This document shows positions 592 through 60,513 of a stretch of 64,000 nt of DNA, one piece after another. Origin of the DNA: Clytia hemisphaerica (taxonomy: Eukaryota > Cnidaria > Hydrozoa > Leptothecata > Clytiidae); contig CACVBU010001117.1 of assembly GCA_902728285.1 (NCBI GenBank), positions 992,001 through 1,056,000 on the forward strand, read 5' to 3'. Position numbers and translations under genes: made by a program. The notes beneath the pieces were generated by a model. The model had not been told where the DNA came from. It searched no databases and worked only from the letters and a program-made list of their open reading frames with translations. Positions within the stretch are counted from its first letter, which is position 1; each line of letters starts with the position of its first letter.

Positions 592-850
592 GTATTACGA
601 CCTTATGACATGAGCTTCTTCAAGATTTACGACGAAAATTTCCAAGAAATATTTACCTTGAATGCAGCGACGTCTTTTGATTACCAACTCGTTGGAGATG
701 ATAAAATTACCGTCCAAATCAGAGATGTGACGTTTGTCGAGAAAAAACGTTATTTTGTTACGTTGGACGATGGTTTTGTGACTGGTGTGAAGAAATGCGG
801 TGCACAGTCTGAATATATCCGTGACCAGGCTAGATGGAATTTTACCATTA
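592..850 (+). CDS. Giant gene exon 1: beta-rich extracellular module
   Basis: First exon visible in the window. It opens right after a T-rich acceptor (tttttttacag) and ends at a GTAAGT donor in phase 1. The 86 codons read as a beta-rich module whose end contains YFVTLDDGFVTG, then a Cys, and near the end WNFTI. That pattern recalls bacterial Ig-like modules, but I do not recognise a named family. A MITE ends only 29 bp before the acceptor. The preceding exon must lie upstream of the window, because the acceptor is good and no start codon fits. Confidence 0.75.
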
Positions 851-3800
851 GTAAGTTTTAAAAAAACAATTAAAAAATTGAGAATCCATCCAAATGATAA
901 GTTAAAACGAATTTTTTTGGCTGATATCAAAGTTTTAGAAATGTTTATTTGATCCATCCACTCTAACCAAGGGTTCTGGACAAAGCCTCTCATCCCGGCT
1001 AAGCAAAATCTTTGATTGGAGTTTTTTTTTGAAAGACGTATCCGAATGGTAGCACTATACTCAATAGTGGTGTAAATGCATCAAAAGTGCTAGATCTACT
1101 TTTCTGGAATACCTGGATATTACCTGAATTTTTAGCATTGCAATGGTTTCTTTGCGGGTACCATTTAAAAAAAAACTTTGATCAAAGATGGCGGATATAG
1201 CTTTGTCTAGGTCAGTGTCTTCATCCCCCCTATGGATGTCAAATTTAATAAATTAATCACTGATTCAATAAACTTTTGTCCAATTTTTGTCTAAGTTCGG
1301 GTGTCAAACTAACCTCCAAGTAGATTCTGATTAATAATCCACGCATTGCACTATTCACTGTAGAGGGGATAAGAATTTGTCATTGTTGGAGAGCTGTTTT
1401 GATCTTTTATACCAGAGTTGATATAAATATTAAGATATGAACTTTTGATGGCGGCGAATGCAATAAATAATTACAATAAAATCAACCGTCAATCATAAAT
1501 ATGAAAATTATAGCCCAGTTGCTTTCGCTTTCACTTTTAGGCAAAAGACAACGCGGTTTTTGAATATTCTGACTGAAAAACTAGATCAGGTCTTTACCTT
1601 CGCCATATCCCTTTAGAGCAGAGTGTGGTGTGCGCAGAACGGATGATTAGTAATGAAATTAAGGGTTATTTCTATTGCATTTAATTTTCTCCATAATCTT
1701 TTCTTTTAAAGAGGACGTCACAGAACCGAAGCTAAATTTTCAGAACGCACCATCCAAAACGAATTCTTTGGTCAATATCACTTGGCAATATGATGAAAAG
1801 GCCACAACCAAATGTGCTTTGACCACACCTAGCGCCTATTTAAACGATGTTAATTGCTCCGCAACACAGTTTACCGGTAACTTTACCAATAACGGCTTTT
1901 ACACGTTATGGATTTACGGTATGGATGAGTCCGGAAACACCGGTTTAACCGGGCAGCATAATTGGCTTGTCGGTAAGCTCTTTAAAGATATCGTTTTTTA
2001 TGGTGCAAAAAAGAAGCTCTTATGCTGACAAAGTGAAATAAACAAAAGAATTTCTCAAAATTTGGAATCGCGTGGCACGCGAAGGGGAGAATTATTTTCA
2101 TTATTTTGATAAAGAATGCTGTGTAAGCAAATTGTAGGAGATGTGTTAAATTGTACCTTTTATGTTCGATTTTTTAAATAATGTTTAAAGCTTTTGAAAG
2201 ATTTTAAAAATAATCAGGGCCTTTATGCCCATTACACCCCTGTGTCACAGACCCGCTACCCCATCACCACTTGAAAATCTGGCAAAAATTTCGTCCCCGG
2301 TAGGAAAATACCCTATAGAATTTTAGCCCCACAGGGAAATTGACTCATATTTCATCCCAACAATAGAATTTCTATCCGCGTTGGGATTTCAATAGGAATT
2401 TTTATCCTTACTGAAGAAGAAAGTTCCACCAGGACTGTGTGACAGGGGTGTCCCATTGGAAAGGACATTTTAGTAAACGGAGATAAGAATTTACAAATTT
2501 TAAAATATTTAAGACATTTTACTTTCTGCACAGACACAACGCCACCAACTGTTTTGATCGATATTTCAAAATCTCCGAATGTCTCTAACCATCGAAGATA
2601 CGAAGTGTTTTTCCGTTGCTCAAATAACGAGCCTTGTTTTGCGAAATGCCGTTTGTTACATCAAAAACAAGTTCTCCAAACATTTACTGATTGCTCTTTA
2701 AGAAGGTAAGAAATATAATTGTTACTGCATTGTATAGCGATAACTATTTTTAAATGTTCGAAAGACTAATTTAACAGCTCTAGATTGAAAATTTAGGTTC
2801 ACTATTGAAAAATATTGGCAGTTGGTACTTTTGTTGAAAACATTGCTCTTGAAAGTAAAGAAATATAATGAAAAGTAATAACTCGTTGTTAAGATAATTT
2901 TGAGTGGCTTGATTTAAGATTTTTAGAATTTGAAAATTAAGATGAAAAATGAAGGAGAAAAGAATAAAAAATTTTTTCAACTGGGCTTTCCAGCTCCCTC
3001 TCTCAAGCAGAATATTTGAATAAACACGGACTTCCAACTTATTTCGGAACAAACTTTTACAACCATTCTTACCCTTAAAAAGGAAAAACTTTTCTTCTTT
3101 GAAGCTACTCTGTGCAGAATGCAAGTTTACTTCAATCTGGTTCAAGATATTCTATTGAAATCATTGCAAATGATGATGTGGATAATGTTGCACCACCAAT
3201 GATTTGGTCATGGCTTGCTGGTAAGGTTTTCATGCTGGATTTTTTTAACACTTTTCAGCCTTAGTTGGGATAAGATGGTGAAGTATCCAGATACTAACGA
3301 GGATTAAAACATTTCCAATATCTATTGAATTTTCCCCCATTTCGACCCCAGCGGGTGTACCTCCGCCAGCGTGGAATCAACGAACAATGTCTTAAACGTG
3401 AAAATTCCCATTTTAATCACTTTCAGCTGACCTGCAACCTGAAAACGTGATCCTTTTATGACTTTATGCTCAGAATTCAACTCTGGTTAGATCAGGAAAA
3501 GTTTCAACATTTTTTTTTTCATTTTTCAAGATTTTGATAGTCCAACATTGCAAGGCTTATCCAACCATTCAATAGTATGCGGAAAACCAATAACTCCGCT
3601 ACAACTTGGAACACCAACAGTTCAAGATAGCTTAGATCCAAACCCTTCTTTGTCTTACACTGACCAAGATGTACCTGGATGTACAACCTTAAGAATTTGG
3701 ACTACGATAGATCACGCTGGTAACAAGGCTATTTTGAAACAGTTTATCAAATTAACGTCATTGTTACCTATTCGGGTAAGACGCCATAATTTTTTGGTTT

Positions 3801-6800
3801 TGCTGAACAAATATGGCTTACTTTTATCACCACAGGACTATGAGTTATAAGCCCGAAGGACTGTAGAAGAATCTTCAGTTTTCCAAGTAACCCAGCTGGC
3901 ACGTTGTTTCAACGTTCATCTAACGTATTATATGGACGTTGTGAACGTTAGATAAACGTCGAAAAAACGTCGAAAAAAACGTTATGTGCCAGCTGGGAAG
4001 AAAAATTGAAACCTAGAGATTTGAACTGCATTTGAGACGATAAATGAAATCTAGCGCTTTCTTTGTAACCCTGCACATTTTCCTCTCCAGTACTTTGGGT
4101 GGTCCACAATTAATTACAGTTAAAACTTCCAATGAACTATTATCATTTAGAAAGCTTAATGTACAAACTACACTTCAAGAAAGTCCGATTGATTGGAAGT
4201 GATTGTGTTATCTCTTCCTTATCAAAATAGTTTTTATCTAATTGAAATTAGTGACCGTAGTGCAAAGGTTGAGCGCCCTGCTGCGGTGTGCAAGGTTGCT
4301 GGTTCAACCACTTGCCGGTTTATACAAAAGACTTTGCACTTAGTACAGAAATGGTACTTGATGCCATTGAGTTTAAAGCCCGACGGGCTAAAGTAGAATC
4401 TCTAACATTTCCCAGACAAGAAAAAAGTGAAGCCACTTATCTCCCATCCAGAACGTGTCTAGAACGCGCCGTAATCATGACGAAGAATTGTATCCAGCAG
4501 TTCCTTTGTTTTTGAGGACTGCATTTTTGAAATCTTGCGGCGTTTTTGTAAAAACCACGCGCGGGCGTTCTGGATGGGAAGTAAGTGGCTTCTCATCCAG
4601 GAGTCTCGAATCTAGCCCTTTGGGCTTGGAAGTCAAACCTTGATGTCTCTCTGATGCTCAGTAATTAAGATAAAGATTAAGGCCTCCCCTACCTTCGGGT
4701 CGCCTCCAAACTGCGCTCAAAGACTTTAGACTTTGATGGGAGAGATTTTAAAAAGTTGTTCTGCAGCCTTTCTATCAAAAACATCAAAGATAATGAGCTA
4801 TTTCTTTCTTAGGTCAATCTCTTAGCCAAAGATCTGATGGCATGCTCAGATGAATTGTACGCAAAACCCGACGTCTCAACTTTTACAAAAGAAGGTCTAT
4901 TGGTTCACCCGTGTAATAAATCTATAGATGGAATCTTTACTTATTCGCCTTCAACTCTTAGATGTAATGGGTTAGTCACCAGGAAATGGGTCTTCACTGA
5001 CAGCTGTGGACAATCAACCAATTTTGATCAATTGATCAAAATTTTACCGATTCAAGACCCAAGTAAACCTAAGAAAGGTGAAGTCAACGTAGACCTTTGG
5101 TACGAACTTGAATGGCCACCATACCCGAACTGTAATAAATATCGCTTGTTTATTTGGCCACTTGGTTCAGTTCGAGGAGAGGCTATTGAAACAACATATA
5201 TCTCATACTCCCCTTCTCGAAATAACTGGTATCCTTCAAACACCAAAATGTTATGGCAAATCGAATACGTTCTTAATGATGGAATTACAATCAATGATCG
5301 CTCTATCGTTCCTTCGCCAGTTTGGGGTTTTACAACTCGTCCCATCAGCAATTTGGAGGTTATTAAAGTTACAGCACCGCCTGAAGCTTTTACAGGTCGT
5401 ACAATACGGATTACTTGGCAGGTCACAAATGTAGGTAGTGGACAAAACTTCAGGTCGTATTATTGGAACGATAAGGTCTTTCTCACCAAAAGCAAAGAAA
5501 CAACCTCTGGATTGTTGACTCGATATCAAAGACAACATCGAATCTTATTTCCCAATGATGCATACACAAGCTCTGTGGATATCTACATTCCCAAAGATTT
5601 GATTGGTGAATTCTACGTTGTGGTAGTAGCAGATATTTTTGAGAATCTAATTGATGAAGACCGCCAAAACAATCGACTTTCAACGGTCAATATGATCAAG
5701 ATTCGTCTAACACCACCTCCTGATTTGATTGTGTCAAATGTCGTTATGCCAAGTCAAATTTTCTCAGGTAAAAAAGAGTAGTATTTTCCTTTAATTATTT
5801 TCAGTGGAGTTTCCATAGCTCGAACCTCTATAACTCAATTCGAATGTCTGAAACAAAGATTTTTGGAACCATGAAAATATCCTAATGAACTATTATAAAA
5901 ATCCATTACAACTCGACTGTCTCTATAAGACTATAAGACTTTAAGTGTTAATTTTAATGAGTTCCTTTTGAGACTATTTCATAACTCTTATTTTCAAGGT
6001 TCAATTATCGCAGCTCGGTGGAAAGTTAGGAACAATGGTAACGGGCCCACCGTTAGTTCCACGTGGACAGATCTTGTCTATCTGAATTCTTCAAGTAGTG
6101 ATTACACATACTTGGCACGTCATGGTAATACTGGACAACTATTTCCTGGTAATGAGTATCAAGTCATCATGAATATCACCATTCCCAAGTATATTGCTGG
6201 CAAATACAATATATTTATTCGAACCAATGCTTATAAAGAAGAATTTGAGTTTCAATCTTATGATAACAATATTGGACAATCGGTTCGTAGTTTTCTTAGT
6301 TTTCTTCACCTAAGTACAACAGGCTCCGAAAGTCGAAACTTTACAGCTTTAATCTCTTTAATCTCTGGAACATTTTTTTATTACATCAATTCATACTTGA
6401 TTTCTATAGAGTATCCATAGCTCGATTGTGTTATTACTTGAGTACTAATTGATAGAAAAATCGACCAGTTCTTTAGTTTAATCTGATTGACCCGTAAAAT
6501 ACCATTCGCTAGTGTGTACTAATTTTTCTTCTTCTTTCCAATATTTTGTTGTTACCAATATTTCAATGTTTAACATATAACTTAGCGTTGGAAAGATTAT
6601 TCAGAACACTAAAATTGGTGAGAAAATGCAGATGAAAAACGAGCTTTTTATCATTTGTTACTAATCTGCAGCAGATATAAAAAAGTGAGTGGGATATGAT
6701 AAAACAGAAAAGATTAGAGTTCGAAGATGGAAAATGAAGAAGAAAGAAAGCAAACTTCTTGTAGAATTGTTCCATGATCTTCATATTCATATTAGGAAAT

Positions 6801-9800
6801 CTTCAATGCTAGAGTGTTTATCACTGTGAAATTTTTAATTAAAACTTCTTTTTTGATAATATTCCACTCCGAATTATCTTTTTAACAAGCACAGAACCGC
6901 TATCTAATTCTAATTCTATCAAAAGTTACAGCCGTTTCTGTCTCCGCTGCAAATTATATTGAGACAGAGTTTAGGTTCAAAATGGAAAGTAAAACAAAAA
7001 AAATGATTGCACGTTTAAACCAAATGGACTTCAATTTGGTCTCTTTTAATAAATTTTCTATATTCTTAATTTCAAGGTCATGTTTGATATCTTTTTGACA
7101 CCACCGCCAGACTTGCGTTTGAAGAAGATAATATCTACAAAATTTGTTTCCAGTCGTGGTTCTCTCAATATCACTTATACTGTTATCAACCAAGGTAGTG
7201 GCTCCACTGATAACCCTAGATGGACAGACATAATGGTTTGTATAATTATATTGTTCGACTTTATCACTTTCGATATCCTATACAGCCCCAGCGGAATAAC
7301 CGTAAGTGAGGAGGCTGAAGGCTAAAAATGTGGTAAAATTCGCTTGGAGCTTGAGCAAAAAAATCTCATTCGCTCAAAAGTGGGGAGGCTAAAGTCTCCC
7401 CAGTCTCCCCGCTTCCGCTGGGTCTCCTATGAACTCACTATTGAGTATTGTGCCATTATAAAATTGGTTCCTTAGCTGCTGTAAGTGCCGTAGGAAGTAA
7501 TTTGATATTTGGGAGGGGGTACTAAAGTTAAATAACACCGCCAGGGCCAGCCATGGCCAAACACAAAATTCATGAATTCAAGCGAAAAAAACGTATTTCC
7601 TTTAATGTTTTGAATAGTCGTCTTTAAGAAACCATATTTGGAAAAAGCATTGGGGATGAAAGTCCTCCCCTCTCCCGGTTGCTACGGCACTGTCATATGG
7701 ACCCAAGAAATCTCGTACGGTAAAATTAAGCTTGAGAAGATTTCTTTTTAATTTTCCACTATGACAAAACCGTGTTTGTTTCCGTAGAAAACATTACGTA
7801 ATAAATATCATGAATGCTTTTTTTTATCATAGGAAATTTCAAAGGATGGTCAAATCAAAGAAAGAAGATACCTAACACATTTTGGGCATTTGGAAAGGCG
7901 AGACGAATATTCTGGTAACTTTCGCTTTGTCATACCATCGTTTTGGGAGTCTGGTGAATATAGCATATCCATCACCACAAATTTCCAGCAAGATCTGTTT
8001 GAGAATGAAGAATATGTGAACAATCAGCTGTCCGAAATATTTACTGTCCAACAAATCATTCCTGACTTGAAAGTGGAGTCTTCGTTGAATTTTAGTTTAC
8101 CAGTTCAAAATCAATTTGATTCTGATGGTAATGTGTTTATTACTGTTGATGATATGGTGATTCTTAATGCTGGTGAAATCGGTGTATCTAGTGAAGTTGT
8201 TTGGAGAGATGCTATAACGATTAAGTGTGATTCTGGATACAGAGAAATGGTGAGAGGAATAAGATTCAAACAAAAGCTTGATGTTGGACAATCCTACACA
8301 TTCCCAGGTTTCAATGCAACCATCAAAAGACAAAAACCAACTAAATGTCTATTTGAATATCGCGCCAATTTTGATGAAAATATCTTGGAAAGAGGACTTG
8401 GGAATAATGTTATTCAAAGTGATGAATTTACATTACCAACTGCTTTTGATAATGTTCAGATTCGTCTTGGTTCCATCTTATTAACTGACTCAGAACCGGT
8501 AGAAACCATATTTTCTGGTAGCACTTATGTAATGGACGTTGTATATGAAGCAATTACTTACCCAGCAAGCCAACCTTTCCATGACACCTTAGAGCTTCAA
8601 CTTAATGATCAAAAGTACAGATTGGGTAGCCTTGAAATCATTCTAGATTCTGCTGGTATATCGGCTACAAAGAGATACTTAGTCAACCTTCCAAAAGATA
8701 TATTTGGAAATGGTGTGTTGATTTTACGTCACGATATCAAGGGTGTATTAATCAAGGAATCAAAAGCGAATATCATTCTTAAGAAAGAAATTTCGATTGA
8801 TTTTCCACCAACTCCAGATTTGGTTCCTACTAATCTAGCTTTTGAACGTGTATCTGACGGCATAATGAGTGTCCAATGGAGTGTGCAAAATCAAGGCAAC
8901 TCCATGGAAACTGAAGCGTCCTGGATCGATGCTGTATATATGGTGAGAGTAAATTCTACAGATTCATATCTTCTTTTCAAGAGTCCAATTGCTGCAAAAT
9001 TAGAGTCTGGTCAAATCTACCAAAAGAAGAAAGAAGTTTCTTTACCAACGAATCTGATTGGGGAATTCAACATCAAAGTTACCGTCGACTCTGGTAATGA
9101 TATCAAGGAGACTGAAGGAGAAGAGAACAATGATTTTATATCTTCTTCAATTTCTACTGGATCTGAAGGAGAACGTTCAACATTGGTAATGAAGAAAGAA
9201 TCATTGCCAGATCTTCTTATCGAACTACTTCCATCGTCTACATTAGGTGAACATTTAGTTGCTGGTGATGAATTCAATTTGGACATCAAGTTTACTAATA
9301 ATGGCAGTCTATTAGCAAAAAGTCCTCTTTTTTACACTATTGAGCTTCAAGCAATCTCCCAAGATTTCAATTTTCTTATGTATTCGACTGTAAAGTATGC
9401 AAGTTTGGAGACTGGATCTAGCCTGTTTGAGCTCTTGAAATTACGGATACCTGTCACCACTCCAATAGGCAACCATACAATTGCAATCACCTTAGATAAG
9501 AATAGGAAAATCAGGGAGAATCGGAAAGATAATAACATTTTAACAACGCATGAATTCGTAGTCAAAGAAATTCCATCTTCAAGAATTGAAATCATTTCCA
9601 ACGTTCAAAACATTTCAATTGTAGCTGGCGAACCAATCAAGATCTCTTTCCAATTCATCAATCAAGGACCAGGGATGTTGAACTACTTCACTCCTTCTTT
9701 CGTTACCATGATCCTAAGTGAAGATCAGATTGTGGATCCAATAGATCTCAGATTATGTGGTAAACCAGTAATCCAAAATCTAAATGTTCACCAAGCTCAT

Positions 9801-24800: not shown

Positions 24801-27800
24801 TTGACTTTTTTTTACAAACAAAAAATCTTGACCAAATTTCACGAAAATAGCCAAAAATTATGAAAATTGCGGATCATCAACACGAGATTTACTCCACTCA
24901 AGGTAGCAAGCAAACGAACATAGTTATGATATGAGTCATGATAAAATGCCAAATTAAGGATTCTGGGCCCGATATATGCGTGATTTATTACTAAGCATGC
25001 CACCGTTTTGATAGCCTTTTACAAAGTAATAAAAATGTAAATGAAATTCTTTGTTTACATCGTAAGAACTATTTACCTAAAGGTCTTGGGCCCACTTGAA
25101 ACAAATTCAATCAAAATGAAACATAAACAAGTTGAAGTTAAATGGATAAACTTTGTTTCAAGTAGCCTACCTGCCTCAGAGAAATCTCAGCAAAAAAATT
25201 TTCGTCACCGTCATGTAACTATAATGAGAAAATTTTTTCTACAACTCTTTCTGTATAGAAAAGGTTGCCTTGTAAAGCTATTGAAGACGCTTACGAACGC
25301 TCCTAAGCTAAAAAAACAACTATATTTCTATTTTAAAAATGTAGCCTATTTACATGATTTCTGAACCACATACAGTCACATTTCTTTTTTATGTTTTGTA
25401 GAAAATGTTGAACGTGAAAGAAAGCATGTCAATTTATGTGAGACTATTTGCTGCATTGGATTTGAAAGAACGAAAGATAACAGTGGTAATGGAAACTCTG
25501 GAGCCTACAACAGGTATGCTGCGCCGTGTATAGTTGATAGTAGACTTCCGTGCATTGAGTTTAAAGCCTCGAAGGGACTAGAGTTGATACTCTTCAGCAC
25601 TAGACTCAATCCGTCATTCAAAAGCTTTCTTAAGAAAGGTTGTAGATTCATCTCTAGTTCTTTGGCTTTAAACTCAATGGTTCTGCGTTAGCTTTTTATT
25701 GTAAAGTAACTTGAAGCTTTGAGGCTTTGACCGCTCTAAAATAGCATGCAACGTTCTTTCGGCATTCATAAAAGTTATTTGGACGTTTTTAACCTCCGAG
25801 CATATTCTGATACTCGGTGTAGCACATATTCATTCTAAAGGCCATGGCTCCGTTAGAAAATCTGCCCGGATTTGGCGACCAATTTAATCTTTTTCATCCA
25901 GATTTGGGATATAAATATTAACTGAAGTTTCGAGCACTTTGATTGTCTAAAGCAATAAACAATTGCACCAAAATAAAGCTTAAATTAAAAACTTAAACAT
26001 TGGTACCCAGTCGCATTCGCTTACAAACGCGGTTTTGAATTTTTTGGCTGAACAACCTGGTCAGATTGTAACATACCCCATATTTCTTAAGAGCAGAGAG
26101 TGGTATACGAAGAATGGATGATCTGCTATGAGAGTAAGACGTTACGAGTGTAAGATGAACATTAAAAGTGAGTAAAGAACCATGGTCTAAGTATTCATCT
26201 GGATCTCTATCCATCAAATTAACTCAGTTTTTCAGTCTTTCTTACAGGGATCCCTTTCAGATGACCTTTCACTCGTTTTAATCATAGGTGAGAGACCATC
26301 AAGTCCATTAGTTGGTTTTTTACCTCCCAACCCTCTCAATGGGACAGATGGACAAGGATTCTTCACATATACTGTTCGCGCTAAAGAAGACACTTCAACT
26401 TATTCTGTAATCAACGCAAAAGCCAGTATTATCTTTGATCAGAATGAGGCTATAGAAACTCCACCTATATTCAATACAGTAAGATTAAATTTTCGTTTGG
26501 GACGTTTTGGTTGTAAAAAAAGCAATATAAAGATATACCAAAAGCAAAGATTTTATTCCCATTTTTAGAAAAACAAAACATTTATTTCCAGCCCCCCCCC
26601 CCCAAATATCAAAATACTTTTGATATTAGGAGGGATTTTGTTTCAAGCGCTTGCAATTTTGTCTAGCCTTGGAATTAAAGCGGTAAACTTTGTTCACGGT
26701 CTAGTTTCTTTATATTTTTGTTGCTGGTTTACCGCTTTCCCAGGCTACAATATGGTATGAGTTTTTTGACAAACAATCGAATTCATATCTTCTACGTCAA
26801 CAGATCGATGGTGATGAGCCCTTTGTCAATATTTCATTGGTGAACACCACAAGAAATTATTCATCCTCCGTCATCATCAAAGTTAACAGTCAAGATGAAG
26901 GATCAGGACTCAGTCATTATGATGTCTTCAAAATCAATGGTTGTTTTTTTTACTTCGAATAAACACCCCCGGGCGTTTATTAAATTTTCTGGATTTTAAA
27001 AGGGGCGTTTATTCGAGGCGGCGTTTAAAAGAAGGGGGGCGTTTATTGAATCATCTGTAACAAAGGTCACTTTATTAAAATGAATGGGAACTTTATTTTA
27101 CCTTTCTTTTATATTTGTGTACAAATATGTCAATATAGGGCTGTACTGTAGAAATAGGTCATAATTAGTCCAAATACTTTAAGTTTTCCTTCGTATTATA
27201 CTTCCTTATTGCTACCTGTTTCATTTAGATTTTAAGAGGTGGGCGTTTATTTGAAGCGGGCGTTTAAAAGACGGGGGCGTTTATTCAAAGTAATACGGTA
27301 TTTTAGTATTAGGTGTGTTGTCCCTGAATATAGATTTTGTTTTAATTACACCGCAAAAATTTAACCATAGAGAGATTTTCCAAATTCGAACAAAGTTTCG
27401 CAACCAAGCTGGGAATCCCCATCATTACGGGAGGAAACATTAGATAAAACAAACGATTTCTTAATGCAGAGCCGAATCCTCTACTTGAGGATAGTGACTA
27501 GACCAAGCCTGAGATCTTTTTATTAGGTCTTACTAATACATATTTTTCTGGTTTTATTCTAGAAACGGATGGGACACGAGAACCACTCTTACATAATATG
27601 AATTCCAATTTGTTCACATTGGATTTTGCCAGTGGTACAGACAATGTGATTAGTGTTTCATCTTACGATAATGTTGGTAACCAAATGGTTGATGGACCGA
27701 GATTGAATCTTCGTATCCCAAAAGGTATACCTGTTACTTGATTTGTTGATGTACCAGTTTAAGCTAGAGTGGGAGGGGATTAACGCATACATTAAGATTT

Positions 27801-30800
27801 TCAGGCTTCCTTGAAATGCCTTGTAGGGTCAATTTGAACGACGGTGCATTTTCACGAGAAGGGGTTTTCTCTTCCTCAAAAGTTGAAACAGTAAAAGTTT
27901 CGATTCTTAATAAGTATAAGAATATCTTGTTCAGAGGAATCTTTAAAGCAGTTCCGGCGGGAAAATAGAACGTTTCTTAAGGGCTCTGACCATAGTGAAT
28001 TTTTCATAATTGCCGTGTTTAAAATGTGTTTTCTGACTTATGTAACCAACAAAACTATGGCATGTTATACATTTTCTGTTAGACAAACTATTCCTGAATC
28101 TGAAAATTCAAAAATTGCATTGAAAAAATTTGATGAAGAAGAAAATGAAGACTTTTGCGAGGAAGATTATTTCAACTTTGAAGAGCTTAGTTTCGGCGAA
28201 GAAAAAACATTTTGAAAATTTTTTCGCAGTAGATGGTGTATCTTTTACCGAACAATAAGAATTTTTGCGGAAAATTTTTGTAAATGCTTCTTTGTGTCGA
28301 AATCTCCAAAATAGTGGTTTTTAATCAATTTTTCATCTGGATTTTGCTTAAAAAAACAGTCATAACTTTTGACACATCTTTTTAGAAAAATTTTCCGCAA
28401 AATTTAAAATAGTTCAATTCTTTGCGGACAGTGGAAAGAAATTTTGAAACAAAAAAGTTAATTACCCATTAAAACTAAGCACTTTTTGTAAAAGAGGGTG
28501 ATGCAACATATTATTAACATCTTTTTAAAGTTCATAACGTCATTTTTGCAATTAAGTTCTTAATTACTCTTAAGCAATTCATAAAGGCGATTCTTTGTTA
28601 AAAGTGTCAAGGAACCTGAAATATAACTTTTATGTTCAAATACCAAAATAGATTTTTGGACTATGGTAAGAGCCCTTAAAGCATTGGAGGTTTCTGCGCG
28701 GATGATGCAGATTTATGTAAATTTTCCGAACGGATTTTCCACCGAAAGAAAAAAGAACTTTAGGGGTGAAATTTTGGTAAATGCGACCATTTTTAAGTAT
28801 CTTACTAAGTTGGTGTTTAAATGACTTTATTCTCTAGCCTCGTGCAAATTGTTGAATGATTGTTCAAATAATGGTGCTTGTGTCAGTGACAACGTATGCT
28901 CATGTTTCAACTCAAGATATGGAAAAGATTGTAATTCAAGTAAGACCGTTAGATTAATATTCTTTTTTTTTTCAGCCGTATAAGGTGATGAAAATCCATT
29001 CTTTAGTTTTTATTAAGCGGTTCGAAATAACGAGCAGTAGTTCTTAAGATTTATATTGATCAAAAGTATACTGTACTCATAGATTGAGGATAATTAATAA
29101 GTTTAAGTGTTTATTTAATCAGGGATGTTTTCCCTGGCAATGCTTTTCAATTTCCGCATTTTTGTTTCTAGAAAATATTATCCAAGAAAGCTCAACTTTC
29201 AATAATTTAAAATTCACCTTTCTTTTTATAGCTGAAAAACCGCTAGAACCACCCATTATTTTTGTTAATCCTATCCAAATTTTCAACTTTACTGGAAAAC
29301 TACCGGTATTAGTATACGTTAAACGTGCGCCCGGTGATAACAAAACTCAAATCACTGCCGAACTGACCAATATTCCGGACAGTGTGAAAATTTCGACCGG
29401 ACAGCGTGTCAATAACACTGTCTTTTTGTCGGAACAAGAACTTTCTGAAATGGAAATCTCTTTTGATGGTGAACAACAGGATTTCAAGCTAAAATTAACC
29501 GTTCACGTTGAAAAGAAATCTGTCCGAAAAAGGCGTTCTTTAGATGAAAATGTCCGAAAATCACGATCATTTGAATTCACGGTCAGCACTAAAGGCTCGT
29601 TACAGCCTGATTTAACAATGGAGGACAATTGTTACCCAAAAGATGCTTCGAAATTACAATTCATGTATAACATCAGAATGCCTTTAAATTCTCTCGGTAC
29701 CGTTAAATTGATCCTTTCAAATGTGCCGAAGCATCACAACATTCAAAATGGTAACCTTGTGAGCAATGGAACATATCAGATTGACAATGCTTCAAATTTT
29801 GATTTGTTCACGATGACAGGAGCTTTTAGTGAACCGTTTAACATTTTGGTTACGGCGTCTGCAGCTCCAACGTACGGGGACGTCGAGAAAGTGATTCGGA
29901 TTACACAGTGTAAGTAGTACCGGTACCATAAAACAATAACTATAAAAGAATTTAAAATTTTGCACTACTTCTTTTATGGTGTCGGATAATGATGCGGGGG
30001 AAATTTCCCTGAATACAAAATCGATATTGAGATTTGATTCTGTTTTAATGTGGAAACAAGTTTGACTCATAAGGATAGTTTCCACATGCTGGTTTCAGTG
30101 AAAAAAAGACAAGGAAACACTTTACGAGGTTGACATTTTGAAATAAAATCACCAAAACGTTCAAATACTTGAACTGAAGACAAATTTAATATACATAATT
30201 TTGAAATAAAGTTCAAAATTGCGCTTTCCAGTCTATTTGAATAGTATTAATTGGTCTCCAGGCTAAGGGACCATCCACATAGTACGTACGCACTGAAGAG
30301 GGAGGAAAGAGGGGGCTTAGCAAAAGCGTACGTCTATTGTTTAAATGACGTAATTTCTATTGTTCTCAGCTTACAAGGGGGGAGGGGGTATTCAATATTT
30401 GGAAAAATTTTGCGTACATACAACTTGGATGACCCCTAATTATAGTTAGATATTGAAAGATGTATTTTGTTTCTTCTTAGGTCAAAATAATGAAGAAGGA
30501 AAGGAAAGCGATGATGATTCATTTCCATTGATCATTGGTTTGCTTGTTGCTGGTGTCGTTCTTGTCATTCTTATTGGCGCCATAGTAATTTGTTGTAAAC
30601 GAAAACGAGGCCCAATTATGTAAGAACTTAGTCCTTAGTTTTTGATCACGTTACCTAGTACTCCTCTTGGGATTGGTTTAAGATTTAATCACTTGATCAA
30701 AAAGTGAGCGAAACAAACTGATTTCACAGCGCTAGTTCAAGTTAGAAACAATGGAAAGAAACAAAAAGCTTCCAGACCAGAGTTTTTTATACGGACTATG

Positions 30801-31347
30801 GTAAGAACTTAATATTGATAAATGATCTCTTCCTTCTCCTCAGATTTCGAAGATTTTAATAAACATATGTATATTTTTATAGGTCTTTTTAGAGTGGCCG
30901 GGTAGCTCAGTCGGTAGAGCATTTGCCTTACAATCTAAGGGTTGTGGGTTCGATCCCCGGTCACCGCCAACTCAGCGGATGAGTAGCTTAGATTGGGTAA
31001 TCTGATCTAGGCGGTAAGTTACTGGGAGCTGAGAGTAGGTGTGGCGCTCCACCTCAGTATTCGATCTCCAAGGTCTAGCGTAAATAGAAAAGGGGATAGA
31101 CTCCCTCACTCCCGGCTCCGCCGACAGCCACCAGATCAATATACTTACTACTTATAGGTTATTACTATTAGGACTCTCTAACTTTATGGCTTTCAAAAGG
31201 ATTAGTCGTAAAAATGTTACCTATACATAAGATTTTGTTGATTTCTTAGAAAATGGAAAAAAGTGATCTTTTCGTCCGGTATTTTCATTTTTCTAATTCT
31301 CTTTTAGATCGAAATCTTCAGGAATCAAAATGAATGAATTTATTTGA
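592..31347 (+). CDS. Giant CARDB-RHS-EGF single-pass membrane protein (3' portion of gene)
   Basis: Seen: 28 exons at 592-850, 1712-1972, 2534-2705, 3105-3220, 3531-3775, 4813-5767, 5999-6282, 7077-7235, 7833-11665, 12811-12941, 13847-14084, 15697-16069, 16567-17763, 18808-18920, 19195-19472, 20189-20293, 20668-20898, 22947-22982, 23661-23896, 24109-24339, 25402-25513, 26288-26478, 26804-26939, 27563-27724, 28838-28939, 29232-29909, 30481-30619 and 31308-31347. All have AG/GT borders, and the phases agree at each join, leaving one open frame of about 3,670 codons. Domain order: Ig-like, two HYR-like, FN3-like, CARDB repeats, PPC/IPT-like, RHS/YD, post-RHS domain, DPND domain, EGF, beta stalk, membrane helix. 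The start and signal peptide lie upstream of the window. Known: CARDB, HYR and RHS are extracellular modules common in bacterial surface proteins. Inference: a cell-surface adhesion or recognition protein. It is not a teneurin, because the membrane anchor is C-terminal and no NHL domain is seen. Confidence 0.85.
1712..1972 (+). CDS. Giant gene exon 2: Ig-like module
   Basis: An 87-codon exon with phase 1 on both sides, so it is a symmetric, shuffling-competent unit. It begins KDVTEPKLNF and ends with a GMDESGNTG segment followed by WLV, the layout of bacterial Ig-like modules that begin DxTxP and end on a DxxGN turn. Two Cys and several N-x-S/T sequons suit an extracellular location. The next exon opens with DTTPPTV, the start of another module of this kind. 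Confidence 0.75.
2234..2451. mobile_element. MITE with 6-bp target duplication, copy 1
   Basis: Ends ACACCCCTGTGTCACAG and CTGTGTGACAGGGGTGT; flanked by CCCATT on both sides (2228-2233 and 2452-2457). The interior has scattered CCCCxxTGGxAA-like blocks. Other copies are at 12444-12752 and 14802-15085, with a fragment at 31814. Confidence 0.87.
2534..3220 (+). CDS. Giant gene exons 3-4: second Ig-like module
   Basis: Exons 2534-2705 and 3105-3220. Exon 3 starts DTTPPTV and ends in phase 2. Exon 4 starts at 3105, after the pyrimidine tract ending gaag, which restores the frame; the nearer AG at 3117 would break it. Exon 4 carries the IIANDDVDN turn and ends WSWLA in phase 1. Four Cys lie in exon 3. 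The module resembles exon 2. The intron between them holds nothing else I can name. Confidence 0.7.
3531..3775 (+). CDS. Giant gene exon 5: HYR-like module
   Basis: The exon starts after tttttcaag, giving DFDSPTLQG in frame. The sequence IVCGKPITP, then a conserved Pro/Asp stretch, YTDQDVPGC, RIWTTIDHAGN and a final QFIKL follows the layout of HYR and related bacterial modules (Cys-Gly-x-Pro, DPNP, a second Cys, W-x-x-x-D-x-x-GN). Known: HYR modules are extracellular Ig-fold units in animal and bacterial proteins. The exon ends in phase 0. Confidence 0.75.
3891..3997. mobile_element. MITE with CCCAGCTGGCAC ends, copy 1
   Basis: Ends CCCAGCTGGCACGTTG and its complement; interior made of repeated AACGTT blocks (TTCAACGTTCATCTAACG, GAACGTTAGATAAACG), so the whole 107 bp folds on itself. 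A near copy is at 62778-62875 and a half copy near 18175-18225. Confidence 0.82.
4370..4632. mobile_element. Inverted-repeat element with GCCCGACGGGCTA ends
   Basis: The left part reads AAAGCCCGACGGGCTAAAGT and GAAGCCACTTATCTCCCATC; the right part has the complement in order (GATGGGAAGTAAGTGGCTTC, then TAGCCCTTTGGGCTTGG). Arms of about 110 bp. GCCCGAAGGGC-type tips recur at 3851, 14210, 14478 and 25565, so this is a dispersed family. Confidence 0.65.
4813..5767 (+). CDS. Giant gene exon 6: HYR-like, FN3-like and first CARDB domain
   Basis: About 318 codons in one exon. The first 75 form a second HYR-like unit (Cys near the start, then RKWVFTDSCGQS). Next comes an FN3-like stretch with LEWPPYPNC and a long WQIEY...WGFTTR element. 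The first CARDB domain starts at ISNLEVIKVTAPP and has ITWQVTNVGSG, DKVFL and DEDRQNNRLS, the usual CARDB signposts. It closes with PDLIVSNV, the start of the next repeat. FN3-like followed by WxFTTRPxxxLxV and CARDB is a junction known from bacterial surface proteins. Confidence 0.85.
5999..7235 (+). CDS. Giant gene exons 7-8: CARDB domains 2-3
   Basis: Exons 5999-6282 and 7077-7235. Exon 7 has WKVRNNGNG, STWTDLVYLN and YDNNIGQS, completing CARDB 2. Its donor is the unusual GTTCGT, but only this cut keeps the frame into exon 8. Exon 8 begins VMFDIFLTPPPDL and carries YTVINQGSGS and RWTDIM, the first half of CARDB 3, which finishes in exon 9. The intron 6283-7076 shows nothing I can name. Confidence 0.8.
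7833..11665 (+). CDS. Giant gene exon 9: CARDB array, PPC/IPT-like modules, RHS entry
   Basis: A single 3,833-bp exon of about 1,277 codons without a stop. CARDB-like units begin with PDL-type motifs near 8061, 8814 and 9208, with further units near 9580 and 9950; most contain NQG/NNG and ENNxx signposts. From about 10320 a PPC-like unit (LTLGIENN...SIMAES) follows, then an IPT-like unit near 10640 (SVFPMRFPALQG), and another CARDB-type unit near 10950 (HPAAVRPDENIEV). The exon ends with NGYGPFGKAWLAPYF, the conserved entry segment of RHS proteins. The donor is GTAAGG in phase 2. Inference: an extended stalk presenting the RHS shell. The lack of introns contrasts with the rest of the gene. 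Confidence 0.9.
12444..12752. mobile_element. MITE with 6-bp target duplication, copy 2
   Basis: Ends ACACCCCCTTCTCACAGA and TCTGTGAGAAGGAGTTGT; flanked by CTTAAA (12438-12443 and 12753-12758). Same family as 2234-2451, diverged inside. It ends 58 bp before exon 10 of the giant gene. Confidence 0.82.
12811..16069 (+). CDS. Giant gene exons 10-12: start of the RHS/YD shell
   Basis: Exons 12811-12941, 13847-14084 and 15697-16069. Exon 9 to 10 joins in phase 2 to give W-SVHIISES, and exon 11 to 12 joins as HTVDYVYDEANFL, a clear YD repeat split by an intron. The segments have the alternating beta-hairpin pattern of RHS repeats (ISDIFGNRFSIHYGDNQ, HEYNSNGHLIAS). Introns between them are filled by MITEs at 12444-12752, 13306-13796, 14187-14508, 14802-15085 and 15509-15664. 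Confidence 0.85.
13306..13796. mobile_element. Pogo-like MITE carrying a nested insertion
   Basis: Starts TA-CAGTCGAGTCTTCA and ends with TTCGAGTTGAAGAGACTC then TA. Short relatives at 41783-41919 and 57177-57332 have the same CAG tips and TCGAA motif. The length is explained by a second element at 13422-13763 inside it. Confidence 0.7.
13422..13763. mobile_element. TA-flanked MITE of the TTATAAGAAC family, nested
   Basis: Left end TA-CACGTTTTTTTTTAATTAG, right end CTAATAAAAAAAAACGTG-TA. TA is duplicated on both sides. The family (tips CACGCTTTTTTATAAGAAC) recurs at 19511-19916, 48718-48931, 62201-62706 and 63606, and as lone ends at 16521, 22570 and 23160. Confidence 0.78.
14187..14508. mobile_element. 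Inverted-repeat element with GCCCGAAGGGCTAGAT tips
   Basis: TCTGTAAAGCCCGAAGGGC near the left end is mirrored by GCCCTTCGGGCTTTACAGA at the right. AGGTTTA occurs just outside both ends and may be the target duplication, with one mismatch if read as 8 bp. It lies between exons 11 and 12 of the giant gene. Confidence 0.65.
14802..15085. mobile_element. MITE with 6-bp target duplication, copy 3
   Basis: Ends ACACCCCTGTGTCACAGACC and its counterpart GAGACAGGGGTGT; flanks TGCTAT / TACTAT (one mismatch). The interior alternates CCCCGGTGGAAAAA, CCCCACTGGGAAA and CCCCATTG blocks, so it looks built of short degenerate repeats. Confidence 0.8.
15509..15664. mobile_element. Hairpin MITE just upstream of exon 12
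   Basis: ATTCATGATATGCACCATTG at the left is mirrored by CAGTGGTGCATATCATGAAT at the right, and the interior (TGACGTATTG / CAATAGCTCATTGG) also pairs. It ends 32 bp before the exon 12 acceptor. Confidence 0.8.
16567..17763 (+). CDS. Giant gene exon 13: YD-repeat array
   Basis: A 1,197-bp exon, phase 0 on both sides, encoding at least ten YD-type repeats, for example EYKYNEKGNLISI, YLYDQDQRL, FYKYNDIGQRVSLTDSSG, YHYDVNGRF, EYQYDRLGRKKKI, ITYDLNGNLIRVE and YVYDALDHLKQ. Known: YD repeats form the spiral beta shell of bacterial RHS/TcC proteins and of animal teneurins. The exon closes with LIDPFGMFGADIIGE, leading into the RHS core. Confidence 0.93.
17851..18161. mobile_element. CACGCAAT-array element, copy 1
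   Basis: Outer ends AGAGCCCCCTCCCCAAGCGG and CCGCTCGGAGGGGGGG. The interior is a loose series of TCACGCAATTTT / TTCACGCAATTTG / CACTCACGCAAA units. The same arrangement occurs at 23228-23471. Confidence 0.65.
18404..18558. mobile_element. hAT-like MITE, copy 2
   Basis: Same family as 414-562: arms CAGTAGCGTAGACAAGG and its complement, nearly palindromic over 155 bp. GGGTACC is repeated at both ends (18398-18404 and 18558-18564), overlapping the terminal base. It lies in the intron between exons 13 and 14 of the giant gene. Confidence 0.85.
18808..19472 (+). CDS. Giant gene exons 14-15: RHS repeat-associated core
   Basis: Exons 18808-18920 and 19195-19472, joined in phase 2. Together they carry the canonical core order: YYQFDHIGSVIGMTD, then TYTYDPFGNIL, NPYQFIGQWG, the MRNRIYFARYGRFGALDP segment and a terminal NLYCYVGNNP. 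In bacteria this is the core RYYxxxxGRFxxxDPxGxxGGxNxYxYxxNNP. The next exon supplies the closing VIDPQG. Both conserved Asp-Pro elements of the self-cleaving core of TcC-type RHS proteins are therefore present; whether cleavage happens is not visible. Confidence 0.93.
19511..19916. mobile_element. TTATAAGAAC-family element with CACCCCGGGGTG palindromes
   Basis: Left ACAAGCTTTTTTATAAGAAC, right GTTCTTATAAAAAAAAGCGTG followed by TA. Inside, at 19735-19797, are copies of TTCACCCCGGGGTGAA separated by T-rich spacers, with a related CCCGGGGTGAAAAA near 19638. Confidence 0.7.
20189..23896 (+). CDS. Giant gene exons 16-19: domain following the RHS core
   Basis: Exons 20189-20293, 20668-20898, 22947-22982 and 23661-23896; the first three are phase 1 on both sides. 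The segment starts VIDPQGTIPL, just after the RHS core. It continues with a Gly/Ala-rich hydrophobic stretch (FWAGLAGATVSGLIPIPGTG), a second hydrophobic run (VITGLIPFGLGKAK), and a basic helical part rich in Lys (exon 19) with two Cys. In bacterial RHS proteins the polymorphic effector tip occupies this position; I see no known catalytic motif here and claim no activity. Exon 18 is only 36 bp; its use rests on phase and the join VRGK-VWAERL. Confidence 0.7.
22166..22799. mobile_element. Element with about 110-bp inverted ends
   Basis: The left arm CGGGAAATATTTCTGGCAAT ... CTCGACCTCGACCTCGACC is mirrored at the right by GGTCGAGGTCGAGGTCGAG ... ATTGCCAATATTTTCCG. The arms also share GGCCGACCCTGG and AAAAAGCCGA blocks. 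Interior without recognisable coding. Confidence 0.7.
23228..23471. mobile_element. CACGCAAT-array element, copy 2
   Basis: Ends GGGAGGCCCCCATGAG and CCGCTCGGGGGGCCTC, with an interior of TCACGATATCACGCAAT-type units. It sits in the intron between exons 18 and 19 of the giant gene. Confidence 0.65.
24109..26478 (+). CDS. Giant gene exons 20-22: DPND-type bacterial surface domain
   Basis: Exons 24109-24339, 25402-25513 and 26288-26478. The exon 19-20 join gives DPNDIIGPAGYGDG. It is followed by KYKVRFENDINATAPAQKV, TTFEFCSFGFGNY, LVGFLPPNP, GFFTYTVRAKED, ASIIFDQNEAIETPPIFNT. As I recall them, bacterial surface proteins have this same order of motifs (DPNDxxGPxG, FENDxxxATAPAQ, GFGFG, LxGFLPPN, GFVxYTV, AxIxFDxNxPIxTPxxxNTID). 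The similarity is recognised from memory and should be tested by search. The domain is complete and intron-split. Confidence 0.8.
24352..24714. repeat. Probable MITE with CCAGGGG tips
   Basis: AACCAGGGGGGTCACTGACC at the left and GAACCCCTGGG at the right. Internal GGGACCCTGTCAGAT and GAGACCCTGTCAGAT copies suggest a duplicated unit. Borders are approximate. Confidence 0.45.
26804..27724 (+). CDS. Giant gene exons 23-24: Ig/FN3-like module with DNVGN end
   Basis: Exons 26804-26939 and 27563-27724. Exon 23 starts IDGDEPFVNISL and contains NSQDEGSGLSHYDVF. Exon 24 ends with SYDNVGNQMVDGP. This is the usual layout of the Ig-like module behind the DPND domain in bacterial proteins. The exon 23 donor is GTTGTT, a weak consensus, chosen because it keeps phase 1 into exon 24. 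A GGGCGTTTATT repeat element lies just inside that intron. Confidence 0.75.
26945..27298. mobile_element. Inverted-repeat element with GGGCGTTTATT motifs
   Basis: TTACTTCGAATAAACACCCC at the left is mirrored by GGGGCGTTTATTCAAAGTAA at the right. Each end has a cluster of GGGCGTTTATT and GGCGTTTAAAAGA words. It begins 6 bp after the exon 23 donor. Confidence 0.7.
27981..28675. mobile_element. PiggyBac-like nonautonomous element, TTAA-flanked
   Basis: Tips GGGCTCTGACCATAGT and ACTATGGTAAGAGCCC; both outer borders are TTAA (27977-27980, 28676-28679). TTAA targets and GGG/CCC tips are characteristic of piggyBac relatives. No transposase is encoded; the 66-codon ORF at 28015 is incidental. A second, inverted partial copy begins at 31973. 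Confidence 0.8.
28838..28939 (+). CDS. Giant gene exon 25: EGF-like domain
   Basis: A 102-bp exon, phase 1 on both sides, with six Cys spaced as C-x5-C-x5-C-x5-C-x-C-x8-C (ASCKLLNDC ... CVSDNVCSCF ... KDC). This is a complete EGF fold in one symmetric exon, the classic exon-shuffled animal form. It is the first module in the gene with no counterpart in the bacterial-like arrangement. Confidence 0.88.
29232..29909 (+). CDS. Giant gene exon 26: membrane-proximal beta-rich stalk with RKRR site
   Basis: 226 codons, phase 1 on both sides. It starts TEKPLEPPIIF and has several N-x-S/T sequons. In the middle is the dibasic stretch KKSVRKRRSLDENVRKS, whose RKRR followed by S matches the furin consensus R-x-K/R-R. 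The second half (from LQPDLTMEDNC) looks like another beta sandwich with two Cys. Inference: a proprotein convertase could cut here and leave the large ectodomain attached non-covalently or shed. Family not recognised. Confidence 0.8.
30481..31347 (+). CDS. Giant gene exons 27-28: transmembrane anchor and short tail
   Basis: Exon 27 (30481-30619) encodes an acidic stretch (ESDDDSF), a hydrophobic helix of about 24 residues (PLIIGLLVAGVVLVILIGAI) and a CCKRKRG stop-transfer segment, so the protein is type I with almost no cytoplasmic tail. Two ends are possible. If ATGTAA is read through the exon the stop is at 30621-30623. If the GTAAGA overlapping it is used as donor, exon 28 (31308-31347, after a strong cttttag acceptor) adds ISKSSGIKMNEFI and a stop. 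A tRNA-headed SINE lies in that last intron. Confidence 0.8.
30896..31140 (+). mobile_element. tRNA-derived SINE
   Basis: Starts with a tRNA-like head of about 74 bp with an RNA polymerase III A box TAGCTCAGTCGG (30903-30914) and B box GGTTCGATCCC (30947-30957). The loop CTTACAA suggests a valine-like ancestor, but the anticodon stem does not pair. An unrelated GC-rich body of about 170 bp follows. Head plus body is SINE structure. The 3' border is approximate and no target duplication was found. Confidence 0.65.
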
Positions 31348-31813
31348 TCAGGCCATCGTTAAATATGAATTATTCGGAAAACCAAAATACATACACAGTT
31401 ATGATTGATCCAATGGATGAGATTTAGTTATTCAACTGTTTTGGATGATGTTTGTTATTTGGATCGTTTATTGACAATGGGCCCATTGCGGTGGCTCATA
31501 ACTTGCTGATAAAGATTATCTACTTTAGTGATTAATTAGCTGCCTATATCTTGTAACGTTTTTGCTGATATACAAGTTTTAGGTTGTCGTGATAAAATGA
31601 TGATATTTAAAGGGAAAAAAAGAAACTGAACTTACTGTATTAATATTTGAATTTCAATTTCTTTCGGAATTGATAGCACAGAACATTGTAAATAGAACAC
31701 CAATTTATAATTTTTCTAATAATCATAGAAATTTAAATCATTTTTGCTCCCAGGACAATCTCAAAGACTGGTTTATCAATCTTTAAAATATTATCAACTA
31801 TTAATGAAAAATC

Positions 31814-32872: not shown

Positions 32873-33312
32873 TCAAACAATTCATGAACATAATCCATGA
32901 CACAATAAAATTAACATTCGAACATTCCAAAGAAAGAATCAACTTCCTAGACCCCTCAATTTCTATCTCTAACCATCAGTAGTTCCACACTTCTATATAT
33001 ACAGAAAACCCACGGACCGCTCTCAATTCCTTCACTTTCAATCAAATCACCCCCTACATGTCAAAGAAGGAATTATATACTCACAAGGACTACGATACAA
33101 CCTCATAATCAGTAATGACCGTAATCTAACAAAAGAACTGAATTTCCTTACCAAAGCTTTTCTGGCTCGTGGATACTCACTATCCCTCATTAACCACAAC
33201 ATTGCAAAGACCCTGTCAATACCCCGTGACACTTTGCTCTATGGTGGCTACCGAAATGTGGAAGTATGGAGGTGATACCCATGTCCTGCGTTTAGTTTAT
33301 GTTCCCGCGGTT
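32870..33312 (+). pseudogene. Penelope-like retroelement fragment (RT C-terminal part)
   Basis: Two frames read as the conserved tail of a Penelope-like reverse transcriptase: TFEHSKERINFLDP, then after a frame break near 32985 YRKPTDRSQFLHFQSNHP, VKEGIIYSQGLRYN and LTKAFLARGYSLSLI. The YxKPTDxxxxLHxxSxHP and SQxLRxxRI-type signatures are diagnostic of this class. The copy lacks the catalytic part upstream, has at least one frameshift and ends in noncoding repeats. No GIY-YIG domain seen. Confidence 0.8.
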
Positions 33313-60291: not shown

Positions 60292-60513
60292 ACCTACTAC
60301 ATGCTACTACTATTGGCAGAATCCTTATAAATCAGCTTGGCACTAAATTCTACTCCTACAACTATCAATTTCGTTGCCAATATTACTGAGATAAGGTAAT
60401 TATTGCTGGGAATTAGTGCGGGAGTTCTTCCTTGTTTCGTTTTTCACTCATTAACAGTAACACAACCAGCTCTCTGAATTCAAATTAGTTGGTATTTAAT
60501 TCAAAGAAAATCC

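Follow-up and report, generated by a model that had tools for sequence, protein, structure and literature searches.

Teneurins, which occur in animals and choanoflagellates, are type 2 membrane proteins with an RHS/YD shell of bacterial origin (PMC6297184), and they also carry an NHL propeller, a Tox-GHH domain and EGF modules. They serve as the textbook example of how animals recruited a bacterial shell protein for contacts between their cells. According to the accessible parts of two reports, teneurins are missing from cnidarians (PMC6297184, PMC6425310), and this absence was once read as teneurins arising with complex nervous systems (PMC6297184). In a bacterial teneurin-like protein, self-cleavage has been described to involve R2103 and the DPxG aspartates D2116 and D2140, and the accessible text of the same report presents mammalian teneurins as devoid of the self-cleavage motif (PMC13018210). 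The mosquito protein SGS1 has an RHS/YD shell and an aspartic self-cleavage site; its core is followed by a hydrophobic segment and, more distally, by a furin site, and the reference list of that paper names a Wolbachia-mosquito gene transfer (PMC9935623). The class of bacterial RHS shells turned into animal surface proteins is already known from teneurin and SGS1. The sequence-only reading of the locus described here had announced a new type of animal surface protein. At the level of the class this needs qualifying, since RHS-shell animal proteins with bacterial kinship are known, whereas the family, the architecture and the topology were not found in print by a literature search, which returned no animal CARDB-RHS protein. 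The 'CARDB' of PMC4715348 was considered as a report of the CARDB domain and discarded, because in the accessible text it is a caspase name.

The window is the whole stretch of 64,000 nucleotides of Clytia hemisphaerica DNA that was analysed, and coordinates are given relative to it, negative values lying upstream. A gene model was built from codon usage and splice sites and its flanks were then read by eye; all exons are predicted. The analysis revealed one gene on the + strand (-18932..31427) with 33 exons and 4,078 codons plus stop in one open frame. The predicted ATG at -18932 corresponds to contig position 973068, 18.9 kb upstream of the window. A gene of 28 exons beginning at 592 had been proposed earlier; its single continuous frame was confirmed, but 26 exons lie in the window and 7 upstream, and 592 belongs to an internal exon. 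All 32 introns of the model are GT-AG and in phase, an agreement that is no independent evidence because the model demanded both. For two boundaries, where exon 15 ends and where exon 28 begins, the choice was guided by the expected domain pattern. Earlier models were dropped because of spurious exons (4452-4580, a read-through at 7236-7301, 22867-22982, and retroelement ORFs taken as exons). By eye, exon 1 (-18932..-18825) contains the start codon and a signal peptide, followed by SHFRGGTISW. Only one segment exceeds a 19-residue hydropathy of 1.7, starting at aa 4019 (about aa 4020-4047 of 4,078, maximum 3.26). By eye and hydropathy, the protein displays the traits of a predicted type I protein, namely a signal peptide, a single transmembrane helix and basic stop-transfer residues. 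The features of the gene are the following:

-18932..-18825, -16558..-16293, -15047..-14866, -14628..-14525, -11070..-10796, -3155..-2923, -419..-328, + strand: exons 1-7, upstream of the window (own gene model).
592..31427, + strand: part of the gene within the window, 26 of the 33 predicted exons (own gene model).
592..3775, + strand: cysteine-rich ectodomain, Ig/HYR-like by eye, exons 8-12, without match in the ORFs of 74 bacterial loci.
4813..5767, + strand: HYR_4C (aa 804-848), FN3-like part and first CARDB-like unit, exon 13 (Pfam, blastp).
5999..7235, + strand: further CARDB-like units, exons 14-15 (CARDB called in exons 13-14; both junctions bridged by L038 alone).
7833..10319, + strand: CARDB-like units, first part of exon 16, which spans 7833-11665 and is open over 1,277 aa (CARDB at aa 1565-1672, unit starts).
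10320..10631, + strand: PPC-like domain (PPC in 16 of 20 alignment members; 20-26% identity to four bacterial ORFs).
10632..10940, + strand: IPT/TIG-like domain (TIG in 1 of 20 members; 26-32% identity).
10941..16069, + strand: plug region and N-terminal RHS shell, end of exon 16 to exon 19 (collinear alignment, junctions bridged).
16567..17763, + strand: YD/RHS repeats, exon 20 (RHS_repeat; 30-31% identity to four bacterial ORFs).
18808..20293, + strand: RHS-associated core with Arg 3257, DPIG 3270 and DPQG 3294, exons 21-23 (Rhs_assc_core; 41-47% identity).
20189..23896, + strand: 183-aa linker, at first hydrophobic and rich in glycine, at the site of the RHS cargo, exons 23-25 (by length).
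24109..26478, + strand: DPND domain (Pfam DUF7619), exons 26-27 (Pfam; 44-48% identity to three ORFs).
26804..27724, + strand: Ig/FN3-like domain, exons 28-29, last part with bacterial similarity.
28838..28939, + strand: single EGF-like module with six cysteines, phases 1-1, exon 30 (gene model; EGF_2 below cut-off).
29525..29536, + strand: RKRR between EGF and membrane, aa 3880, candidate furin site.
30481..30619, + strand: predicted transmembrane helix, then CCKRKR, exon 32 (hydropathy).
31352..31427, + strand: short cytoplasmic tail and stop, exon 33 (gene model).

Other coding sequences were observed in and around the gene. The intron between exons 5 and 6 contains long ORFs on the + strand (-10312..-4837), which we take to be a BEL/Pao-like retroelement, and the intron between exons 6 and 7 contains ORFs on the - strand (-2569..-768), presumably a LINE-like endonuclease and reverse transcriptase. 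Three long ORFs (345, 349 and 239 aa) at 50803-53327 (+) seem to us to resemble a P-element/THAP-type transposase, and a 439-aa ORF at 55346-56665 (-) presumably resembles a soluble guanylate cyclase subunit with the start of a cyclase domain. The segments 59644-60303 (-) and 32973-33275 (+) were assumed to be reverse-transcriptase-like fragments.

A mitochondrial contig of 14,551 bp was found in the same assembly with a COX1 query, and COX1 runs off one of its ends. Pfam identified COX1, cytochrome b, COX2, COX3, ATP synthase A and five NADH dehydrogenase ORFs, all on one strand; the names nad2, nad3, nad4, nad4L and atp8 were given by eye. The contig has the small rRNA between the ORFs of nad5 and nad6 and the large rRNA at one end, on the opposite strand. 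With the invertebrate mitochondrial code, ARAGORN returned tRNA-Trp (UCA) and tRNA-Met only; its metazoan-mitochondrial mode gave six candidates including these two, Rfam gave two tRNAs, and a bacterial-code run on the first 10 kb of the contig gave no tRNA. Eight of the ORFs contain 43 internal TGA codons. COX1 beside cytochrome b, the inverted large rRNA and the few tRNAs fit the hydroidolinan hydrozoans outside Aplanulata, as these are described in the accessible parts of PMC4655093 and PMC3519871, and point to a hydrozoan host that is probably other than Hydra.

A Pfam scan of the whole predicted protein yielded four families above the cut-offs, CARDB (2.9e-22), DUF7619, which is the DPND domain (2.4e-14), RHS_repeat (1.5e-10) and HYR_4C (2.1e-6), with EGF_2, RHS, Ig_VWA7 and DUF4832 listed below them. 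When the protein was scanned in pieces, CARDB (9.7e-11 and 4.7e-12), RHS_repeat (1.8e-16), DUF7619 (4.8e-16) and HYR_4C (2.3e-6) were obtained, and DUF4832 was barely above its cut-off on a CARDB stretch, where the whole-protein scan placed it below. The NCBIfam model Rhs_assc_core scored 60.7 bits against a cut-off of 32.5 (1.5e-16). Nine CARDB-like units were read, starting at about aa 950, 1074, 1196, 1314, 1443, 1565, 1696, 1819 and 1944; Pfam called CARDB on three stretches in the pieces and on two in the whole protein. PPC and IPT received no Pfam call in the gene's own residues, either in the whole-protein scan or in its own row of a 20-member alignment (0 families), and they are assigned because bacterial relatives carry these domains at the aligned place: at E up to 0.05, PPC was found in 16 and TIG in 1 of the 20 members, the TIG of the Gloeothece protein falling 0.3 bits short of the cut-off. 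On the EGF-like module, EGF_2 stayed under the cut-off (0.0029 for the part, 0.014 for the whole protein). From the domain list given by the sequence-only reading, HYR, CARDB, the RHS repeats and core and DPND were thus recovered, but PPC and IPT were uncalled in the gene's own residues and EGF_2 was below cut-off. The modelled DPND domain is 24 residues short (gaps of 8 and 16) compared with all six bacterial copies aligned, and a reading of the flanks (exon 26/intron 26, 24339-26248) revealed no exon for these residues. Pfam and NCBIfam scans named no toxin family in the linker. The RKRR at aa 3880 is a candidate furin site, judging by the furin consensus.

The central block of the protein is similar to single bacterial ORFs over most of its length. 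A search of the translation against bacterial ORFs, proposed earlier as a check, gave collinear matches of 378-488 bits. The best was an ORF of Gloeothece (L010, WP_245602873), aligned to aa 1557-3678 over 2,221 columns with 25.9% identity and 488 bits. Two ORFs of Chlorobiaceae (L027 and L038) reached 437 and 436 bits, both up to aa 3757, and the longer of these alignments is collinear from aa 1074 over 2,879 columns (436 bits). An Anabaena ORF gave 378 bits with an alignment up to aa 3297. One reversed and 19 shuffled versions of the sequence scored at most 28.9 bits, against the 378-488 bits of the matches; on these alignment scores, chance similarity is excluded for the block aa 1074-3757. 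This collinear part comprises CARDB units, PPC, IPT, RHS shell and core, linker, DPND/DUF7619 and an Ig-like domain, with identities of 41-48% in the RHS core and DPND and of 20-32% elsewhere where measured. Weaker similarity to other bacterial ORFs starts at about aa 857, in the FN3-like part (blastp).

Each of the 17 exon junctions that fall between aa 1074 and 3757 is crossed by at least one of the four alignments with a net gap of at most 3. The junctions at introns 13, 14, 15 and 28 are bridged by L038 alone, intron 29 falls just where the alignments run out, and the junctions at the picked end of exon 15 and start of exon 28 are not independent, because the domain pattern guided the choice. 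Gaps of nine occur in L038 at introns 23 and 24, and a gap of seven in L058 at intron 19. The CARDB-PPC-IPT-RHS-DPND-Ig order, collinear with single bacterial ORFs over 2,221 and 2,879 columns, agrees with the earlier proposal that the block was acquired as a unit, and the 16 introns inside it (exons 13 to 29), set against the single open frames of bacteria, agree with the proposed gain of introns.

Relatives are spread over many bacteria. With the DPND part as tblastn query, 16 of 72,556 plasmid records were matched (best Gloeothece verrucosa, 45%), and with the RHS core part 984 plasmid records. A GTDB scan with a four-row alignment produced 151 pattern matches, and 61 loci were confirmed as encoding a DPND domain, in cyanobacteria, Planctomycetes, Bacteroidota, Chlorobiaceae, Verrucomicrobia, Acidobacteria and others. 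A single-protein scan of genomes and an alignment scan of viral contigs gave no relatives. An RHS core with a DPND domain downstream of it was found in 23 bacterial ORFs, the two being separated by a linker of about 74-409 aa. This linker, very variable in length, occupies the place of the RHS toxin cargo. At its C-terminus the Gloeothece relative carries Cadherin_3, He_PIG and calcium-binding repeats of the RTX kind, as might be expected of a secreted adhesin. The hydrozoan protein runs as a single chain from CARDB units through RHS repeats and core to DUF7619; it is not encoded by an uninterrupted bacterial gene, given its 33 predicted exons, signal peptide and transmembrane helix. We read the 33-exon gene as a putative transferred descendant of a bacterial CARDB-RHS-DPND giant protein family.

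Separate trees, also suggested beforehand, were made for the RHS and DPND parts and placed the gene among bacteria, all other rows being bacterial. In the RHS tree (this gene and 32 bacterial rows), the gene, as the sole eukaryotic row, belongs to a clade supported at 98/96, in which it branches off first (89/86); the other members are 22 bacterial rows (cyanobacteria, Planctomycetes, Verrucomicrobia, Chlorobi and others). Outside this clade are five rows of Bacteroidota and five RHS rows that lack DPND. The end branch of the gene measures 2.36 changes per site, and the tree program warns that the placement is unsure. In the midpoint-rooted DPND tree (this gene and 67 rows, again as sole eukaryotic row), the gene falls on the side that also contains cyanobacteria, Chlorobi and most Bacteroidota (100/97), where two Acidobacteria adjoin it with unreliable support (88/40). 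By sequence comparison, the closest relatives found are cyanobacterial and Chlorobiaceae proteins; the donor is not nameable from the trees. The long RHS branch and the many introns also fit another reading, in which an ancient animal or wider eukaryotic family would have carried the block since before the cnidarian split; the transfer would then be old and the gene ordinary for its group. This explanation is a serious but still doubtful competitor, and a weak point against it is that nothing similar was found in the literature search.

The flanks of the block are of a different type. Aa 19-850 matched none of the ORFs from 74 bacterial loci at E<=1e-3, and aa 19-394 (the N-terminal 376 aa) had no plasmid match; within this genome, a 230-aa N-terminal piece matched four exons of this gene only. 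The protein has 25 cysteines in aa 1-856, 16 in aa 857-3747 (2,891 aa) and 8 in aa 3748-4020, and three bacterial ORFs of 2,738-3,898 aa have 0, 1 and 5. The N-terminal module scanned alone has a weak similarity (E 0.011) to Pfam SIBA-E_N, the N-terminal domain of Dictyostelium SibA-E; this likeness is below the family cut-off and absent from the whole-protein list, and it does not amount to membership. The comparisons show that the gene, as modelled, is a mosaic of animal-type flanks and a bacterial-kin block. Phase, splice sites and a single strongly hydrophobic segment bear out, as predictions, the fusion to an EGF module and a membrane anchor that had been put forward earlier.

Such a mosaic would also be produced by a false fusion of two adjacent genes in the model, the first an animal surface gene ending with exon 12 and the second a gene descended from bacteria that begins with exon 13. 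Kinship and cysteine content do shift near exon 13, with the similarity starting about 85 residues into this exon, and no homologue bridges the 12/13 junction. However, the phase fits, there is no intervening stop, and in the model the block lacks its own signal peptide and the N-terminal part lacks an anchor; we regard a wrong join as improbable.

That the gene is a divergent teneurin, inherited vertically from the choanoflagellate-animal ancestor with shuffled flanking domains, is very improbable. Teneurins share with it the kind of RHS/YD shell and an EGF-like module, and the closest PDB sequences of the RHS part are chains named Rhs-family protein and teneurin-like protein, the lengths of the latter agreeing with the bacterial protein in the accessible text of PMC13018210. 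But among the 12 PDB sequences matched to E = 10 no chain is named animal teneurin, and the Rhs-family chains reach 1e-26 against 1e-20 for the teneurin-like protein. Moreover, no NHL or Tox-GHH match was found in the whole protein at E up to 0.1, and the CARDB and DPND neighbours and the predicted C-terminal anchor speak against a teneurin as well. Genome searches were carried out on the assembly of 417 Mb in 951 contigs. An exon-wise search gave no TEN_YD-shell match in the genome, which is weak evidence, and genome-wide profile searches revealed no further RHS or teneurin genes, an absence that is also weak evidence because PF05593 missed the gene's own repeats. The CARDB and DUF7619 profiles each matched this gene only, with the same limit of sensitivity.

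The RHS core of the gene contains R3257, D3270 and D3294, with spacings of 13 and 24 residues equal to those of R2103/D2116/D2140 in the bacterial teneurin-like protein. The Arg/Asp/Asp pattern occurs in 29 of 30 bacterial rows, the thirtieth (L064) ending before the motif; variants among the 29 have a shorter spacing, DTxG, DAxG or no first glycine. After the second DPxG the gene has Thr, found in one of the 29 bacterial rows, where Leu prevails (17/29), so that cleavage activity is not certain. A decaying or silent transferred gene without function, to which the absent part of the DPND domain and the transposons in the introns could point, is hardly credible in view of 4,078 codons without stop, catalytic residues correctly spaced and 41-48% identity in core and DPND after long divergence.

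The interpretation that we favour, and hold to be probably correct, is an old bacterium-to-animal transfer of a giant CARDB-RHS-DPND adhesin as one piece, now a type I surface receptor. The bacterial gene would have entered the animal lineage as one piece long ago and then gained 16 introns. The C-terminal domains of the bacterial relatives have no equivalent in the predicted gene, where the block now stands behind a signal peptide and an animal-type ectodomain and before an EGF-like module, a transmembrane helix and a short tail. From the domain kinds, the N-terminal ectodomain and CARDB stalk may extend outward and bind a partner, and from RHS structures the shell would lie nearer the membrane and enclose the 183-aa linker. 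Given the kept Arg/Asp/Asp motif, the RHS core may cleave its own chain behind the second DPxG; the C-terminal part would then remain in the membrane, with the shell held on the anchored stump without a peptide bond, an arrangement comparable to that of other two-piece adhesion receptors. Tension or the binding of a ligand could then set free the linker or the ectodomain, and the candidate furin-like RKRR could be a second cut. The domain kinds suggest a role in cell-surface adhesion or recognition.

Compared with known systems, the bacterial CARDB-RHS-DPND giants have the same CARDB-to-DPND order in one chain, with 24-26% identity overall. Their other parts are Cadherin_3, He_PIG and RTX (L010), He_PIG (L038) or FG-GAP and Big_5 (L027); they lack the animal-type ectodomain, EGF module and transmembrane helix of the hydrozoan protein, and their genes are single open frames. 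SGS1 is comparable in the order of its aspartic cleavage site, hydrophobic segment and furin site (PMC9935623), but it differs in its two beta-propellers, CBM, lectin domain and Tox-SGS, in having no classical signal peptide and in several putative transmembrane helices, some inside the shell; the accessible text of its description makes no mention of CARDB or DPND (PMC9935623). Teneurins likewise bring an RHS/YD shell of bacterial origin to the animal cell surface, with EGF modules, but they are type 2 proteins with an N-terminal anchor, NHL and Tox-GHH, whereas the gene encodes a predicted type I protein with CARDB and DPND; mammalian teneurins have no DPxG motif, which this gene keeps. With the predicted signal peptide first and transmembrane helix last, the anchor opposite to that of teneurins, as anticipated by the sequence-only reading, is upheld as a prediction. 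Evenly balanced in our judgement is the wider proposal that this would be a third independent RHS-shell domestication in animals, in a phylum from which teneurins have been reported missing, type I and probably two-piece, with stalk, shell, cargo slot and DPND collar from one adhesin, serving contact, recognition or microbe binding. If true, bacterial RHS recruitment for the animal cell surface occurred more than once, here with about 2,700-2,900 bacterial residues moved as one piece and later split by 16 introns, in a laboratory-tractable group for asking what an RHS shell does in an animal cell. The contrast with teneurin would then be another bacterial RHS family, an opposite predicted topology and a kept cleavage motif.
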